Source: Bacteroidia bacterium
GTDB taxonomy: Bacteria; Bacteroidota; Bacteroidia; JAESSM01; NORP286
Assembly (NCBI GenBank): GCA_016764115.1
Contig: JAESSM010000222.1
Location: 1 to 25,219, forward strand
Direction of reading: 5' to 3'
Length of the DNA: 25,219 bases
Shown here: in pieces, positions 7,785 to 19,105 of the stretch
How the letters are laid out: each line of letters opens with the position of its first letter
How positions within the stretch are numbered: position 1 is the first letter of the stretch
Notes under the pieces: generated by a model
The model's input: only the letters and a program-made list of their open reading frames with translations
Database searches by the model: none
Told to the model about the DNA's origin: nothing
Program-made: the position numbers and the translations under genes

Positions 7785-9317
7785 TTGAAACAGCGCTCGT
7801 ATTTTCTAAAAATAGCAATATTTGCAACGGGTGTATCTGGTTTAGTTTCCGAATTTATATTATCCACCCTAGCATCTTATTTTATTGGTGATACGATTGT
7901 ACAATGGACCATTGTACTGTCCATTATGTTATTTACTATGGGACTTGGAAGTCAACTTAGTAGATACATCAGCAAAAACATTCTGCGTACATTCTTGCTA
8001 ATCGAATTTTGCCTATCCCTTCTCATCAGTATAGCCCCGTTGTTTGTTTACAGCGTTGCAGGCTACACACAGTACATACATATTGTAGTTTATGGTCTTA
8101 GCGCTTTGATCGGATTGTGTATTGGTTTTGAAATCCCATTGGTCACTAGACTGAATGAAGAATTTGAAAATATCAGAACAAATGTATCAAGTGTAATGAC
8201 ATGGGATTATGTTGGTGGTTTAATTGGAGGATTGGCATTCGCTTTTTGGGGATTACCGGTATTAGGGCTCAAGAACACAGCATTCCTTTTCGGGTTACTG
8301 AATTTGTTGGCAGCGATAATACTTCTTTTGGTTTATTGGCAAGAACAGAAGAAAAGTAAATTGATTATTACCGGAACAGCGTTAACAGTTGTTTGTTTAT
8401 TGGTCTTTGGGTTTGTAAAGTCAGATCAAATAATGCTTTATGGTGAACAAAAACGATACAAAGACAAGATTGTTTATGTGAAGGAATCGAAATATCAGAA
8501 ATTAGTGATTACCACTTGGCTGGATAATTATTGGCTGTACATTAATGGAAATTTACAATTGAGCACAATTGACGAGTTTCTTTATCACGAACCAATGATC
8601 CATCCAATTATGCAAATTAGCCAAGAGCATAGAGATATTTTGATAATTGGCGGAGGAGATGGTTTTAACGTTAAGGAACTTTTAAAATATGATCAAGTTC
8701 AAAATATTACGTTGGTAGATATTGACCCAGAAATGACTTCTCTAGGAATGATATACGAACCATTTGTGCAAGGAAATGATTCGTCATTGCATAGTAACAA
8801 GGTGACTGTTTTAAATGAAGATGGTTTTGTTTACCTGCAGAATACAACCAATTTTTATGATGTTATAATTGTTGATTTACCGGATGCAAAGGGGGTAGAT
8901 TTAAACAAGTTATATACGAAGGAATTCTATGATTTGGCCAATTTGCATTTGAAACCCAATGGTCATATAATTACTCAGGCAGGAAGTCCTTATTATGCTA
9001 CGCGAGCATTCGAATGCATCAATAAGACTATGAAACATTCAGGATTTGAAACGTTGAAACTGCACAACCAAGTGCTATCAATGGGCGAGTGGGGATGGAT
9101 ACTAGGGTCAAAAAGATTTGGAAGAAACCAAATGATCAAATTGTTGCACGATCCTGATTTCCCGAAAGTAGATACACGTTGGTTAAATTTAGAATCTGTT
9201 GATATGATGCTAGCATTCGGAAAACCATTGACCGACACAAGTAAAATTCAAATCAATACGATCAACGATCCGGTGTTGTACCGGTATCAACTCAATTCAA
9301 ACTGGGATATCTACTAA
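7785..9317 (+). CDS. Membrane-fused polyamine aminopropyltransferase (spermidine synthase-like), copy 1
   Basis: The 510 residues comprise about seven transmembrane segments (1-210) and a C-terminal aminopropyltransferase domain (215-505). The catalytic half shows SKYQKL (235-240), LYINGNLQLSTIDEFLYHEP (251-270), the decarboxylated-SAM loop IIGGGDGFN (287-295), VDIDPEM (311-317) and VDLPDAKG (363-370), where D364 and D367 replace the usual DSTDP catalytic loop with its Asp pair kept. The reaction would be transfer of aminopropyl from decarboxylated SAM to an amine; the acceptor is unknown. The first possible start is TTG at 7785, because an in-frame TGA (7770-7772) lies just upstream, and the homologous N-terminus of copy 2 begins at the same alignment point. 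It overlaps the FAD oxidase gene by 4 bases at the 3' end. Confidence 0.88.
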   Translation: MKQRSYFLKIAIFATGVSGLVSEFILSTLASYFIGDTIVQWTIVLSIMLFTMGLGSQLSRYISKNILRTFLLIEFCLSLLISIAPLFVYSVAGYTQYIHIVVYGLSALIGLCIGFEIPLVTRLNEEFENIRTNVSSVMTWDYVGGLIGGLAFAFWGLPVLGLKNTAFLFGLLNLLAAIILLLVYWQEQKKSKLIITGTALTVVCLLVFGFVKSDQIMLYGEQKRYKDKIVYVKESKYQKLVITTWLDNYWLYINGNLQLSTIDEFLYHEPMIHPIMQISQEHRDILIIGGGDGFNVKELLKYDQVQNITLVDIDPEMTSLGMIYEPFVQGNDSSLHSNKVTVLNEDGFVYLQNTTNFYDVIIVDLPDAKGVDLNKLYTKEFYDLANLHLKPNGHIITQAGSPYYATRAFECINKTMKHSGFETLKLHNQVLSMGEWGWILGSKRFGRNQMIKLLHDPDFPKVDTRWLNLESVDMMLAFGKPLTDTSKIQINTINDPVLYRYQLNSNWDIY

Positions 9318-10816: not shown

Positions 10817-11876
10817 TTAGTTTCATCATGATTCTAAGGTGAGGATTACTGTCATTCATTTTCCAAATAAAACCATCAAGTACATAATGCACAACTTGTG
10901 GTAAAGAAAGCAGTGCTAAGGCAATAGCCTGAAATCTCGTGTTCGTTATTTCCGGATAAGTTATCCAGGAACCAAATAACTCTTGTTTATCTTGACTCAA
11001 TAACAAATCCCAAAGGTACTCCTCTCCAAAAGCGAAAAATAATGATCCGATTATTACTAAACTACCAATAGCCAATGTGGGTGAAATTTTCTTTTGGGAA
11101 GAATCAGCCTGTTTAGTGGATTGGTAAAAAATAATTAGAACTATGTATGGAACTCCATGTGCTACAACATTGGTTAAGGTAAAAGCAAGGTCAGAATTGA
11201 AATAGATAATTCCTAAATACCAATTGATAGCGGTAGTAAACAACCACAAAATCCGACCCAATGACAAACGAATAGAACCATGTTTTATCAACCGAATTTC
11301 ATCTGTCAACCAGCCTGCAAGAATCAACCAGTAAAAAGTATTTAGAATCTGCCATAACAGAAGTGAGTCCATTTGAAATTGAATAAAATCACCATCCACA
11401 AACCAATTGAAATCACGAAAATTTAGATGCCAAAATAGCACGGGATAAAGCATTGATAAATAAATGGCAAACTTATCAGAAATGTAGCGTTTTACTTTCA
11501 TGGCCCCGGATCGAACCGAATAAAGAGCAAAAAAACCGTACTGCTGTTTTATAAAATGAAATAATGCCAGATAAGCCATCCCGCGCCAGAACCAATCAAT
11601 GGATTCCGAAGCTACAGTAAACAGAATTACAAAACACAATATTGGAGCCAGGCCCAATAGTCGCTTGTGATTTGCAAACTCTGCTTTATCGAAGTAGGTT
11701 CTAAAAATTGTGCTCCAAACATGGGCTACATCAATCATCAAAACTCCAACCACCCATACCCATAATGGAATTTCCGCATCAAGAGTTTGTGAAGGGATAC
11801 AGAACAACAATATCCATACTGCCCAAACAGGAAAGAACAGGGTTGTTAAATCTATATTTCGTCCGAATAACCACAT
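10809..11876 (-). CDS. Polytopic membrane protein with several intramembrane histidines, unknown
   Basis: I choose the ATG at 11876, which forms a TGATG overlap with the upstream synthase stop; a GTG one codon earlier (11879) is possible. The 355-residue product has about eight to nine transmembrane segments. In numbering from the GTG, striking polar motifs lie inside or beside helices: D50-V-A-H53-V-W-S-T, H108-F-I-K-Q-Q-Y-G, N238-V-V-A-H241-G-V-P-Y, and H331-Y-V-L-D335-G-F-I-W-K. Such spaced His/Asp residues in helices recall metal- or heme-dependent membrane enzymes (for example Brp/Blh dioxygenases), but I see no alignment-level match and assign no function. It lies between the second synthase and the FAD oxidase with overlaps on both sides, so all three are probably made together. 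Confidence 0.75.
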   Translation of the reverse strand: MWLFGRNIDLTTLFFPVWAVWILLFCIPSQTLDAEIPLWVWVVGVLMIDVAHVWSTIFRTYFDKAEFANHKRLLGLAPILCFVILFTVASESIDWFWRGMAYLALFHFIKQQYGFFALYSVRSGAMKVKRYISDKFAIYLSMLYPVLFWHLNFRDFNWFVDGDFIQFQMDSLLLWQILNTFYWLILAGWLTDEIRLIKHGSIRLSLGRILWLFTTAINWYLGIIYFNSDLAFTLTNVVAHGVPYIVLIIFYQSTKQADSSQKKISPTLAIGSLVIIGSLFFAFGEEYLWDLLLSQDKQELFGSWITYPEITNTRFQAIALALLSLPQVVHYVLDGFIWKMNDSNPHLRIMMKLNE

Positions 11877-13417
11877 CACATATACCTAGTCCAAGCTCCA
11901 TCAAGATAGTAACGATATAACACAGGGTTTTGGATGGTATTAACTTCAACCGAATCAGCATCTTGTAAATCCTTTCCAAATGATGTCATCAACATTATGG
12001 ACTCTGGTGTGATCCATTGTGTTTCAACATCGTCAAAAGAAGTGTGTTGTAGCACACTTTTAATCTCTTCTGATTGAAGTGTTTTCGAACCGATTACCCA
12101 ACCCCATTCTCCAAATGAATAAACATGATTATGGATTGCCAATGAATTGAAACCGGCTGATGCAACTGTTTTCTCAATGGAGCGATACGCTTTGGTTGTA
12201 TAATACGGGCTCACTGCTTGAGTTACTAACACGCCTTGAGGTCGAAGTTTCTTGTTACATAACTGATAAAATTCTTTTGTATAAACCCGATTAATATCAA
12301 TGCTTCTTGGATCCGGAAAATCCAGGATCATCACATCAAAAAGCTGATCTGTTTCCATTAAAAATTGAAAAGCATCTTGATTAATTACCTTTACTCTTGG
12401 ATCATAATAAGAGCTGTCATTCATTTCAGTGAAGATTGGATTTGACATGCCGATTTTTGTCATTTCCGGATCTATGTCTACCAAGGTGATCTCTTTGACC
12501 CCCTCATATTTAATCACTTCTCTGATAGCGCAACCATCACCTGCTCCTAATATCAAAACAGAACGTGGATCTTTGCTTAAATGCATTACCGGATGTACCA
12601 ACGGCTCGTGATACAACCATTCATCAAACGTACACAACTGCTTGCTACCATTGAGGTATAACCAATAATGCTCTTTGTATTGCGTGATCGTAATTTTTTG
12701 AAATCTTGTTTGCTCTGAGAAGATTACTTTGTCGCCATAGCGTTTTTGTTCTCCATGCAGAACAATCTCATCGGCTCCAATTCCAAGGAAAACAAGGAAG
12801 ATTAAAATGATTGGAATAAGTGTGGCAAAAATTCGTCTATAGGTTGTGGCAAGATGGTGTTTCAATTTCCAAAAAAGGAAGATGGCCACTAAAAAGTTGA
12901 TTCCACCCAGAATGAATGGGGTATGAGTCAATCCTAAATAAGGCAACCCAACAAATACAAAGAACAAACCACCAATTAAACTACCGTAGTAATCGTTCTC
13001 CAGTACTCCCGCAATGTTTGTTCTCAGCTCTTCATTATCTTCATTTATTCGTGTAACTAACGGGATTTCCATTCCGATTAGCAGCCCAATTGCAATCGCA
13101 AATCCATAGATCACAATGCCAATGTAACTGGTATACCCCATCATTACATAGCAACAAAGAACGGCAGTAGACGTCAATAATGACAATGCAAACTCAGCCA
13201 TCAGAAATTTCTCAAGAATCTTATCGGTAAATGAAGCGCTAATTCTACTACCCACTCCCATCGAAAATAGCATGCTGGAAAGGATCATCGTCCACTGAAA
13301 TATTGAATCCCCCAAAAAGTACGTGGCTAGAGTCGAAAGAATGTATTCAGCTACGATTCCTGCTAACCCCGTTGCGAACAATGCGAGCTTTAATATACTA
13401 GATTTTCGGGTTGTCAA
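11876..13417 (-). CDS. Membrane-fused polyamine aminopropyltransferase (spermidine synthase-like), copy 2
   Basis: This 513-residue protein is a clear paralogue of the plus-strand synthase, collinear over its whole length. It shares the seven-helix N-terminal half (LALFATGLAGIVAEYILSTL, IGMEIPLVTRINE) and the catalytic half: LYLNGSKQLCTFDEWLYHEP (253-272), ILGAGDGCAIRE (289-300), VDIDPEM (313-319), LDFPDPRS (365-372). The decarboxylated-SAM loop is GAGDG instead of GGGDG, and the catalytic loop keeps both Asp residues plus the canonical Pro. Substrate specificity may differ from copy 1. The start is TTG at 13417; the frame extends upstream to a TGA at 13460-13462 with no ATG or GTG between. 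It heads the minus operon and uses decarboxylated SAM presumably made by speD. Confidence 0.88.
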   Translation of the reverse strand: MTTRKSSILKLALFATGLAGIVAEYILSTLATYFLGDSIFQWTMILSSMLFSMGVGSRISASFTDKILEKFLMAEFALSLLTSTAVLCCYVMMGYTSYIGIVIYGFAIAIGLLIGMEIPLVTRINEDNEELRTNIAGVLENDYYGSLIGGLFFVFVGLPYLGLTHTPFILGGINFLVAIFLFWKLKHHLATTYRRIFATLIPIILIFLVFLGIGADEIVLHGEQKRYGDKVIFSEQTRFQKITITQYKEHYWLYLNGSKQLCTFDEWLYHEPLVHPVMHLSKDPRSVLILGAGDGCAIREVIKYEGVKEITLVDIDPEMTKIGMSNPIFTEMNDSSYYDPRVKVINQDAFQFLMETDQLFDVMILDFPDPRSIDINRVYTKEFYQLCNKKLRPQGVLVTQAVSPYYTTKAYRSIEKTVASAGFNSLAIHNHVYSFGEWGWVIGSKTLQSEEIKSVLQHTSFDDVETQWITPESIMLMTSFGKDLQDADSVEVNTIQNPVLYRYYLDGAWTRYM

Positions 13418-16455: not shown

Positions 16456-16465
16456 CTTCTTTGCT
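16444..16465. terminator. Hairpin between convergent TPR remnant and hypothetical gene
   Basis: Perfect 8-bp stem AGCAAAGA (16444-16451) / TCTTTGCT (16458-16465) with loop GTAACT. The TAA of the plus-strand gene (16453-16455) is in the loop, and the minus-strand stop begins inside the right arm. It can act in both directions, although no T tract is present. Confidence 0.5.
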
Positions 16466-16820
16466 AGTAAGGAATGTAAACAAAATTGGCCCCTTGCTCA
16501 ACAAGGACAAATAAGCAAATGTGCTTTTTCGGATCTTTATAGTTTTTTTTAAATCCTTCTGACTTTTTTCTATCAATAATTCCTTTCTCGATAAATTGTT
16601 CCAATGTTGAGGCATTGATACTCCATTCCATTTCTAATTCATTTTTATCCAATATAACTTCTCCAACAGATACTTCATGTTGATGTGCTACGAATATAGG
16701 ATATTCAGAAAGGCCTTCTTTCAATATTTCAGATGCCACCTCCTTAATTGAGTCCTTATAAACCGTAATATCCTTTTTTATACTTTCCAGAATCGGACTA
16801 CCTGTACCATTCTCCTTCAT
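16464..16820 (-). CDS. Conserved-type hypothetical protein (118 aa)
   Basis: I recognise this as a kind of small protein seen in Bacteroidota but know no function or domain name for it. The 118-residue product has an N-terminal helix (ILESIKKDITVYKDSIKEVA), a segment SEYPIFVAHQHEVSVGEVIL, a middle WSINASTLEQFIEKGIIDRK, and a strand-rich end KHICLFVLVEQGANFVYIPY. There is no signal peptide, membrane segment or catalytic motif. Codon use and composition resemble its neighbours. It lies downstream of recG on the same strand, but the 167-base gap between them is filled by the octamer array, so it may have its own promoter or be transcribed through the array. It converges on the TPR remnant with 8 bases between the two genes. 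Confidence 0.68.
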   Translation of the reverse strand: MKENGTGSPILESIKKDITVYKDSIKEVASEILKEGLSEYPIFVAHQHEVSVGEVILDKNELEMEWSINASTLEQFIEKGIIDRKKSEGFKKNYKDPKKHICLFVLVEQGANFVYIPY

Positions 16821-16821
16821 A

Positions 16822-16984
16822 ATGCGAATATATTTATGCTAATATGCTAATTCATACGAATGATACCAATATATTATACTCATATACGAATACACGATTT
16901 TACGAATATACCAATAGGGTATATATTCTCATTTGTATATTAGTATCCACATTCGTAATACTAGTACCATTTGTATATTGGCAT
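16822..16984. repeat. Array of degenerate octamers ATRCNAAT, switching to the reverse complement ATTNGYAT
   Basis: The whole gap between recG and the 118-residue gene is built from one 8-base word. Exact ATRCNAAT copies start at 16822, 16836, 16844, 16854, 16863, 16884 and 16908, with degenerate copies at 16892 and 16900. After a centre GGGTATATATTCTC the word appears in reverse complement ATTNGYAT: exact at 16931, 16939, 16969 and 16977, degenerate at 16951 and 16960. Several copies abut directly. The middle base N varies freely (G, T, C, A) while the flanks are held. The two halves face each other and can pair imperfectly. An 18-bp direct repeat (16931-16948, 16969-16986; 2 mismatches) consists of two units plus CC. 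Confidence 0.8.
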
Positions 16985-16987
16985 CCT

Positions 16988-19105
16988 TCACGATATCCGA
17001 CTCCAATTACCTTTTCTCTTATTATAATCCGTAAGATGATTTTTCAAGAGTAGATTTTCAGTATTATTCAGGTCAGGATCTGAATTTAATAATTCGCTGG
17101 CTGAATATCTGGCTTCGATCAAAATGGGTGTATCTCTAGCTAAATCAGCAATTCTAAGATCTAAAATTCCACTTTGCTGGGTTCCTTCTAAATCTCCTGG
17201 GCCTCTTAACTTAAGATCCACTTCGGCAATCTCAAAACCATCGTTCGTATCTACCATAGTTCTCAACCGAGCAAGTGCATCATTACTTAATTTATTTCCA
17301 GACATTAAAATACAATACGATTGGTCTGCTCCACGTCCTACCCTACCCCTTAACTGATGAAGTTGAGACAACCCAAACCTCTCAGCACTTTCAATGATCA
17401 TTACACTTGCATTAGGAATGTTCACCCCTACTTCAATTACAGATGTTGCGACCATTATTTGGGTTTCTTTTTTTACAAACCGTTGCATCTCATAATCCTT
17501 ATCTGCACTTTTCATTTGACCATGTACAATACTAACTTGGTATTCAGGCATCTGGAAAGTCCGGCAAATACTTTCGTAGCCATCCATCAGATCTTTATAA
17601 TCCAGCGTTTCAGATTCCTTTATCAATGGATAAACAACATAAACTTGACGGCCCAGTTTAATCTGCTCTTTCATAAAACCAAAAGCCCTTAACCGATGAG
17701 AATCAAATCGATGGATAGTCTTTACAGTTTTTCTTCCGGGTGGAAGTTCATCAATAACTGAAACATCCAAATCACCATATAAAGTCATAGCTAGCGTTCT
17801 TGGAATGGGTGTGGCAGTCATTACCAAAACATGCGGAGCTATGGTATTTTTTTTCCACATCTTTGCTCTCTGTTCTACTCCAAAACGATGTTGTTCATCA
17901 ATAATCACTATTCCCAAATTCTTGAACTGAACCTTGTCCTCAATCAATGCATGTGTTCCAATAAGAATATTTAGTTCCCCGCTTAAAAGCTGTTCATCTA
18001 TATCTCTCCTTTTCGTAGTTTTTGAAGAACCAGTTAACAATTCAACCTTTAACTCAAGAGGTTTCACAAGTTCATAAATTGACTCTAAATGTTGGTTGGC
18101 CAATATTTCTGTAGGGGCCATGAAACATGCCTGGTACCCGTTATCAATTGCCTGCAAGATGCTCATCAAAGCAACAATAGTCTTTCCACTACCCACATCT
18201 CCCTGCAATAGGCGATTCATTTGTGTCCCGGATAATACGTCTTTCCTGATCTCTTTCAGTACTTTCTTTTGGGCCGTGGTTAGCTCGAATGGTAATATTT
18301 CATTATAAAATTTATAAAAATTATCACCTAAGTTTTCAAACACATGCCCTTTAAGTTTGTCTCTATTCAATTTTAACTTAAGAATCCTTAATTGGATCAA
18401 AAACAGCTCTTCAAATTTGAGTCTAGCTTGCGCTTTTTTCAAAACCTTTAGATCTTCAGGAAAATGTATAGCACAAAAAGACTCCTTTCTATTTAACAAT
18501 TTGTATTTGTTGGCAATTATTGGAGGGATGAACTCGTTAATTTGACCGTTTAATTTTAAATGCAGTTGTTGCTGCAATTTCATAATCCCTCTGCTGGTCA
18601 ACCCTCTGGATTTTAATTTTTCAGTTGAATGATAAACAGGTTGTAAATTTGAACCTACATTTTGAAGTTCATCTTTTACCGGCTCGATTTCGGGATGAGG
18701 AATATTGTATCTCCCCTTGAAATAATTTGGTTTACCGAAAATTATATATTCTTCATTTGGCTGAAGATATTTTGCCATCCATGTAACGCCTCTAAACCAA
18801 ATCAATTCAATTTTTCCGGTATCATCTGCCACTTGAGCAATCAACCTTTTGGACCGTCTAGCGCCTTCCGTTCGCATATTGATCAATCTACCTTTCAGCT
18901 GAATATAAGCTGCATTCTGGTCAATTTCATTGATCTTATGAAACTTGGTTCTATCAATATATCTGAATGGATAAAAACTAAGCAGGTCGGAAAATGTAAA
19001 GATCCCCAACTCCTTCTTTAATAGATCTGCCCTGGCCGGGCCAACGCCTTTCAAATATTCAATTGGAGTTAGAAGTTGGTTATCTTGCATTGAGCGAGGA
19101 ATCAA
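16988..19105 (-). CDS. recG: ATP-dependent DNA helicase RecG
   Basis: The 705-residue protein has the normal RecG length and order. The N-terminal wedge/OB-fold domain (about 10-250) includes LKGVGPARADLLKKELGIFT and an OB core with QLKGRL and GRYNIPHPE. The helicase domain shows Walker A GDVGSGKT (302-309), the Walker B variant DEQH (403-406), ATPIPRT (431-437) and, near the C-terminus, QLRGRVGRG (motif VI), followed by the usual TRG-type segment (FEIAEVDLKLRGPGDLEGTQ). RecG remodels stalled forks and branches Holliday-type junctions in the cytoplasm. It follows rsmG with a 30-base gap on the same strand and is probably co-transcribed. The ATG at 19105 gives MIPRSMQ; the second ATG five codons on is also possible. 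Confidence 0.96.
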   Translation of the reverse strand: MIPRSMQDNQLLTPIEYLKGVGPARADLLKKELGIFTFSDLLSFYPFRYIDRTKFHKINEIDQNAAYIQLKGRLINMRTEGARRSKRLIAQVADDTGKIELIWFRGVTWMAKYLQPNEEYIIFGKPNYFKGRYNIPHPEIEPVKDELQNVGSNLQPVYHSTEKLKSRGLTSRGIMKLQQQLHLKLNGQINEFIPPIIANKYKLLNRKESFCAIHFPEDLKVLKKAQARLKFEELFLIQLRILKLKLNRDKLKGHVFENLGDNFYKFYNEILPFELTTAQKKVLKEIRKDVLSGTQMNRLLQGDVGSGKTIVALMSILQAIDNGYQACFMAPTEILANQHLESIYELVKPLELKVELLTGSSKTTKRRDIDEQLLSGELNILIGTHALIEDKVQFKNLGIVIIDEQHRFGVEQRAKMWKKNTIAPHVLVMTATPIPRTLAMTLYGDLDVSVIDELPPGRKTVKTIHRFDSHRLRAFGFMKEQIKLGRQVYVVYPLIKESETLDYKDLMDGYESICRTFQMPEYQVSIVHGQMKSADKDYEMQRFVKKETQIMVATSVIEVGVNIPNASVMIIESAERFGLSQLHQLRGRVGRGADQSYCILMSGNKLSNDALARLRTMVDTNDGFEIAEVDLKLRGPGDLEGTQQSGILDLRIADLARDTPILIEARYSASELLNSDPDLNNTENLLLKNHLTDYNKRKGNWSRIS

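Follow-up and report, generated by a model that had tools for sequence, protein, structure and literature searches.

The window, i.e., the whole stretch of 25,219 nucleotides that was analysed, belongs to a Bacteroidia genome (G000; 2.09 Mb, 69% complete, 244 contigs). Between recG and a 118-aa open reading frame (ORF) lies a 167-bp gap (positions 16821-16987) with 11 exact copies of the octamer ATRCNAAT (ATTNGYAT on the opposite strand), seven on the plus strand followed by four on the minus strand. The original prediction had described eleven exact copies that fill this gap in opposite orientations on the left and on the right, which is correct; its four near copies are about right, with five further positions that match 6 of the 7 fixed bases. 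In the mono-shuffled gap (2000 shuffles), the mean count is 0.14 and the maximum is 3, and none of the remaining 1241 segments of 167 bp in the window contains more than 2 octamers. The entire window has 31 matches vs. 15.4 expected from dinucleotide shuffles, none of 100 such shuffles reaching 31. The locus contains the following features:

16464..16820, minus strand: 118-aa ORF downstream of recG, without Pfam family
16822..16984, both orientations: whole octamer array, an ORF-less palindromic element with 11 exact words and blastn relatives in the window's genome
16822..16829, plus strand: extra octamer beyond the left arm
16836..16870, plus strand: left arm with four octamers at spacings of 8, 10, and 9, which fits the arm template at all 28 fixed positions; letters ATGCTAAT ATGCTAAT tc ATACGAAT g ATACCAAT
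16884..16915, plus strand: extra loop words ATACGAAT, TTACGAAT, and ATACCAAT
16931..16946, minus strand: a further pair of inverted octamers, read as ATACTAAT ATACAAAT on this strand, an inner copy or an arm remnant
16951..16984, minus strand: right arm, partly eroded, with 2 exact octamers and 1 with one fixed base off; read on this strand, ATGCCAAT ATACAAAT g GTACTAGT a TTACGAAT
16988..19105, minus strand: recG, with Pfam RecG domains; the array begins just past its stop codon

The template that fits the left arm is the same one that was used on the CPR loci, and the best of 30 mono-shuffled windows matches 21 of its 28 fixed positions. In the right arm, whose register was set by eye, the third octamer is two bases off, and the strict arm scan (threshold of 21 of 28) misses this arm. 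By inspection, the window's two arms match neither at the single-base spacer nor at any of the four N positions, and in this they resemble related palindromes. ACGAAT-type words, comparable to those in the loop at 16884..16915, also border a GxxExxY gene (L344) in the window's genome.

Several simpler descriptions of this array can be rejected. A microsatellite is contradicted by the fixed words, the 8/10/9 spacing, and an order that is common across phyla, and a CRISPR array by 8-bp words that occur in both orientations, many of them adjoining or 1 to 2 bp apart; the original prediction had rightly set the array apart from both. It is not a conserved recG-linked element, because up to 400 bp downstream of recG in 29 other recG loci there is never more than one octamer (none in 22 loci and one in 7; the loci were fetched from 40 genomes searched, the window's genome included). 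At E values up to 0.01, tblastn does not find the 118-aa ORF in any of these 29 loci. An exceptional RNA fold alone is rejected as well: the z scores are -1.78 and -2.39, and 12 and 3 of 200 shuffles, respectively, are equally stable. Rfam finds no family at gathering score over the window array, with one sub-threshold GAIT match beside it, and three tRNAs only in eight related loci. Thus, of the structured RNA that had been suggested, a hairpin is possible, whereas an Rfam family at gathering score is not found. Elsewhere in the window, two similar-looking membrane proteins (7785-9317 and 11876-13417), each of which presumably includes a spermidine-synthase-like half, flank a pair of other genes.

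Distribution and architecture of related elements

The original prediction was to be abandoned if the genome held no further clusters beyond chance, and such clusters are found: the pattern ATACNAATN{0,20}ATRCNAAT occurs at 46 places in the window's genome vs. 3 for the reversed control, and blastn searches with the window array retrieve relatives on many of its contigs. A switch of orientation at the centre, which the original prediction had put forward as a check, is seen in the related palindromes but not in most clusters of the window's genome, where 17 of the 21 clusters of at least 3 words are one-directional (36 loci examined). Many arrays there (L033, L036, and L038, among others) consist of a single left arm with ACGAAT-type words (acgaattaacgaatacacgattttacgaat) after it and no right arm.

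Among 60 genomes, the window's included, only three are rich in octamers, namely, G000 (32 places vs. 2 in the control), G007 (86 vs. 5), and G058 (33 vs. 1); the remainder have at most 11 places each. G007 is assigned to the same class as the window's genome. A scan for the four-octamer pattern, with one genome per species, yields at least 116 stretches. Among the 80 matches listed with titles, 66 come from what we take to be Patescibacteria-type candidate phyla, 4 from Bacteroidetes (one genome), and 10 from unclassified bacteria; one further locus, L282, is in a record from Nitrospirae. In nine genomes picked for carrying arms, a similar pattern is found at 98 places and the control at none.

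The unit in these loci (at least 116) is an arm of 35 bp, in which four octamers follow each other at spacings of 8, 10, and 9; 116 of the loci were selected by the arm pattern, which biases the fixed positions there but less so in the mirrored partner arms. Neighbouring arm pairs less than 100 bp apart (n = 47) are convergent in 40 cases, divergent in 6, and tandem in 1; the loops of the convergent pairs measure 0 to 58 bp, and the divergent pairs are all 2 bp apart. Most inverted arm pairs surround a short loop, and some surround a single GxxExxY gene of ~130 aa. Conservation is seen in the words, whereas many loops and flanks are variable. None of 40 palindromes lies within an ORF. Where both neighbours are close (26 palindromes), 24 are located between co-directional genes, which rejects a promoter or terminator element, and the distance from stop codon to arm is 8 bp or less in 20 of 26 cases. 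A GCTTCGCT- or CGCTCGCT-like word is found a few bases outside the arms in the left flanks of L443/L447, L478/L479, and L494/L495 and is perhaps a further element border. Small GC-rich hairpins, e.g., cccgatagccatcggg and ccctgcctgccggcaggcaggg, are located within G007 arms near the two-base spacer (L128, L132, L135, and L139) and look as if another palindromic element had been inserted.

The fifth base of the octamer, which had been described as free, is variable, but its composition in related elements depends on which octamer it belongs to. It is also anti-correlated between the arms; the effect is clear in octamers 1 and 4 and weaker in octamer 2. In 66 arm pairs, the arms agree in 15.4% of cases at N1 (35.8% when permuted) and in 10.9% at N4 (32.1%); the value at N2 (31.2% vs. 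41.0%) is borderline, and there is no effect at N3. A pattern like that of N1 and N4 is seen in this set for the single-base spacer and for the first, but not the second, base of the two-base spacer. Agreement at the fixed positions is 96 to 97%. Thus, the conserved degenerate position of the original prediction is better put as a position at which the arms tend to stay different.

The same excess of mismatches is seen in 63 unique short-loop palindromes with both arms in template spacing (78 before repeats were removed), which differ at 5.33 of 7 free positions, vs. 3.94 for random arm pairs; three or fewer differing positions are found in none of the 63, vs. 36% of random arm pairs. With one element per genome, the permutation p value is 0.0002 for 34 genomes or untitled loci, a number that may be too high because untitled loci are counted as separate genomes. 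When start-type arms are compared with end-type arms only, the effect persists, with 3.71 vs. 2.87 of five positions unlike (48 elements). Among pairs with exact arms and loops no longer than 12 bp, all 17 are unlike at N4 and at the single-base spacer, again with no effect at N3, and in 8 gene-carrying pairs with exact arms spaced by ~400 bp, the excess is weak. The strict arm scan retains just 1 pair from G007 and 3 from G058, with 4 to 6 of 7 free positions unlike. By inspection, several G007 palindromes go against the mismatch rule, having identical inner octamers in both arms.

The GxxExxY gene enclosed by the arms

An all-against-all comparison of the ORFs within 1.5 kb of arms places the GxxExxY family at the top, with 15 loci vs. 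5 for the next family. By inspection, octamers are present on both sides of the gene in 13 of these 15 loci, and the start codon of the enclosed gene is often within the arm; of the remaining two loci, L259 has variant words and L183 represents a longer ORF without octamers. Among 14 convergent arm pairs that are 81 to 1500 bp apart, all 10 with a distance of 300 to 600 bp contain a GxxExxY gene, pairs at 147, 658, and 1206 bp have none between them, and L192, with arms 150 bp apart, contains a GxxExxY remnant (E = 1.4e-9). The HMM for the enclosed-gene search derives from proteins encoded at these very loci; PF13366 and TIGR04256 serve as an independent check. All 19 enclosed-gene members match PF13366 (PDDEXK_3) with E values up to 0.001, and one member scores 73.9 bits with TIGR04256 (cut-off of 35).

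The enclosed protein has a predicted structure (pLDDT of 88 and pTM of 0.80) with a PD-(D/E)XK fold that is nearest to Cas4 proteins. Its invariant residues (A1) include E53, Y56, D85, K97, Q109, and Y113, and G48 is nearly invariant. Foldseek searches with the predicted structure give no match at E values of 0.001 or below, and sequence searches of solved structures give marginal Csn2 matches alone (E = 0.08). The PADLOC Cas4 and Cas4b models match 1 to 3 of the 19 members, weakly (best E value, 5e-5). In contrast to Cas4 and RecB-type nucleases, the protein is a single small domain whose gene lies inside a palindrome. Its first eight residues, mostly coded by octamers, have pLDDT values below 50. 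In the CPR start arm, e.g., that of L221 (5737-6141), the octamers are translated as an N terminus M-H-T-N-H-T-N-K, in which Thr codons have N3 and N4 as their third bases.

A tree of 95 rows relates these proteins to the words at their flanks. The "octamer flank" label requires 3 changes on it, vs. a mean of 17.7 for shuffled labels (0 of 500 as low); many octamer rows were chosen via their arms, so the tree tests agreement and not frequency. The tree is based on few alignment columns and has many open forks, and it includes some stray non-family rows on very long branches. Of 19 octamer-flanked rows, 17 fall into one clade, together with one ACGAA-type row. This clade crosses phyla, and the Bacteroidetes octamer row is placed in the tree among CPR rows. 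A second clade comprises 6 of the 7 ACGAA-type rows, including L344 of the window's genome, and two octamer rows.

Probable mobility and competing explanations

Copies of the palindromes are found at unrelated sites. In G060, the gene-less copies L443 and L447 are 94.7% identical over 132 columns that span arms and loop, and their flanks are unlike save for a short GCTTCGCT-like stretch. Further copies with unrelated flanks are L436/L440 (94.9%) and L438/L444 (91.3%) and, in other genomes, L494/L495 (91.3%) and L491/L492 (86.3%). One site in G060 carries an eight-octamer palindrome, upstream of a gene that we take to be recA, and the syntenic region of G061 contains no octamers. The site in G015 that matches a G058 palindrome is shorter and maybe has a remnant, and hence is not a clean empty site. 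The borders are mostly CG/CG and in some cases TA/TA on both sides; these are self-complementary and not separable from the inverted repeat, and no target-site duplication is demonstrable at them.

The array in the window is probably an ORF-less, partly eroded, non-autonomous member of a family of small mobile palindromes, in which the complete element has two inverted 35-bp four-octamer arms around a GxxExxY gene, encoding a small PD-(D/E)XK nuclease of the Cas4/RecB type. Among the three guesses of the original prediction, a self-propagating element is the best, because near-identical copies are dispersed, one copy is absent from a syntenic site, the family has spread across phyla, and complete versions carry a nuclease-family gene. 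Also observed are the arm-gene-arm anatomy, the absence of the gene from the dispersed copies, the correspondence of protein clades to arm words, and the mismatch excess. The GxxExxY protein would recognise those arms that bear the word of its class, probably in a cruciform or in folded single-stranded DNA, and would cut there. Both complete elements and copies without the gene would in this way reach intergenic sites, in the manner proposed for REPINs and their RAYT transposases. A hairpin with mismatches at the "free" bases may stay recognisable or may escape destruction as a perfect palindrome. The link between GxxExxY and word is an association; from the anatomy and this co-variation, we infer that the putative nuclease moves the arms.

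Several observations count against a mobile palindrome. The window's genome, in its 69% complete assembly, has 3 PF13366 matches, none of them in the octamer clade, although it carries the ACGAAT-flanked L344, and most of its arrays have no second arm. The lack of a demonstrable target-site duplication, the possible remnant at the G015 site, the identical inner octamers in G007, the weak mismatch excess in the gene-carrying pairs, and the 2 of 19 rows outside the main clade point the same way. So does the Staskawiczbacteria genome of L196 (G064), which has 18 arm places and no PF13366 match; if GxxExxY is the mover, its gene would in that case have disappeared, have been overlooked, or be located elsewhere.

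One alternative is a regulatory or structural array, in which the octamers are sites for a host protein or a GxxExxY regulator and are kept between genes by selection without being mobile. A free base within a fixed word is usual for protein-binding sites, and the constancy of the words amid varying loops and flanks, as well as their exclusion from ORFs, would fit this explanation. However, near-identical copies at unrelated loci share their loops too, the distribution is patchy, the position just past a stop codon between co-directional genes is unusual for a promoter, and none of the 29 other recG loci has more than one octamer in up to 400 bp downstream; we regard this explanation as unlikely. 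The narrow distribution likewise makes the nucleoid or segregation-protein array of the original prediction a poor fit. Still less likely, in our estimate, is a system of the RAYT/IS200 type, with ordinary REPINs whose movement depends on a HuH tyrosine transposase encoded elsewhere and with GxxExxY as a passenger. The palindrome anatomy resembles that of REPINs (PMC3116915), Y1_Tnp (PF01797) genes are present in G000 (3 genes), G007 (7), and G058 (8), and arms occur in G064 without a PF13366 match. However, PF01797 is also found in the array-poor genomes G005 (8), G030 (12), G006 (3), and G020 (1) and, in the 8 genomes searched, does not separate array-rich from array-poor ones; no Y1-like protein is seen by eye among the listed examples of the 15 largest near-arm families; and it is GxxExxY that is enclosed by the palindrome and whose clade predicts the word. 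A further possibility, to which we give a little less than an even chance, concerns the mismatches alone and is compatible with a mobile palindrome: long perfect palindromes could be avoided because of replication instability, SbcCD-type cleavage, or RNase III acting on the transcript, and the mismatches would then not reflect recognition. The strong excess in short-loop palindromes and the weak one in the gene-carrying pairs are in its favour, whereas the contrast between N4 or the spacer and N3 means that the positions are not interchangeable, with which avoidance is still compatible.

The mobile palindromes proposed here have partial counterparts among known elements. In the REPIN/RAYT system (REPtron), according to PMC3116915 and PMC6006769, REPINs are short extragenic inverted doublets with predicted hairpins that are dispersed and non-autonomous, and a related gene is flanked by the same repeats. 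The elements related to the window array share these features, but they have four octamers per arm and the same word across phyla, and the enclosed gene belongs to a PD-(D/E)XK nuclease family, PF13366, and not to the HuH/Y1 transposases. With MITEs they share terminal inverted arms, a shortened gene remnant (L192), and dispersed copies; they differ in having no demonstrated target-site duplication and in arms that are arrays of a degenerate octamer avoiding perfect complementarity. The enclosed gene itself is a member of the GxxExxY family (TIGR04256/PF13366). In one literature passage, a GxxExxY gene is named as the neighbour of a CRISPR-like reverse transcriptase, and the passages retrieved for GxxExxY by name or accession make no link to flanking repeats or mobility. 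No description of the octamer palindrome family was found in the openly licensed PMC literature.

If correct, this interpretation would provide a role for a nuclease family without known function and connect it with intergenic repeats that still lack an explanation. It would also mean that a REPIN-like parasite of intergenic DNA has arisen around an unrelated enzyme and that one and the same element passes between candidate-phylum bacteria and Bacteroidota. Given the match of clade and word and the mismatch excess, recognition is open to direct study with short oligonucleotides and a single small protein.

Possible further word classes

Inverted repeats at GxxExxY flanks extend beyond the octamer clade. 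In a first set, with a usable gene in 28 of 30 loci, the flanks of 25 of the 28 genes exceed the 95% level of 42 control ORFs as inverted repeats (p = 2.6e-9). In a second set from other genomes, with a usable gene in 23 of 29 loci, the p value is 2.2e-7, yet only 9 of 23 exceed the control 95% level. We tentatively propose that GxxExxY proteins could move a large, unrecognised class of palindromes with one octamer word per clade, of which ATRCNAAT and the CACAGAG-, CGCAAAG-, and CACAGATT-type arrays would be classes; a Cas4-like nuclease that reads mismatched arms, and not a transposase, would then spread them across phyla.

The pattern AYRCNRAK, picked after the first flanks had been seen, is found there 51 times in the forward and 13 times in the opposite orientation (shuffled, 7.8), and 5 of 3000 random patterns score as high. 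The second set has 24 forward and 14 opposite matches (shuffled, 6.8), vs. 18 and 32 in control flanks (43 ORFs), so an octamer frame AYRCNRAK common to the word classes is weakly supported by this set.

CACAGAG-, CGCAAAG-, and CACAGATT-type arrays are common intergenic repeats. In loci L316 to L345, arrays of these words are found in inverted orientation at the flanks of many GxxExxY genes of the GPGLLESAYE type.
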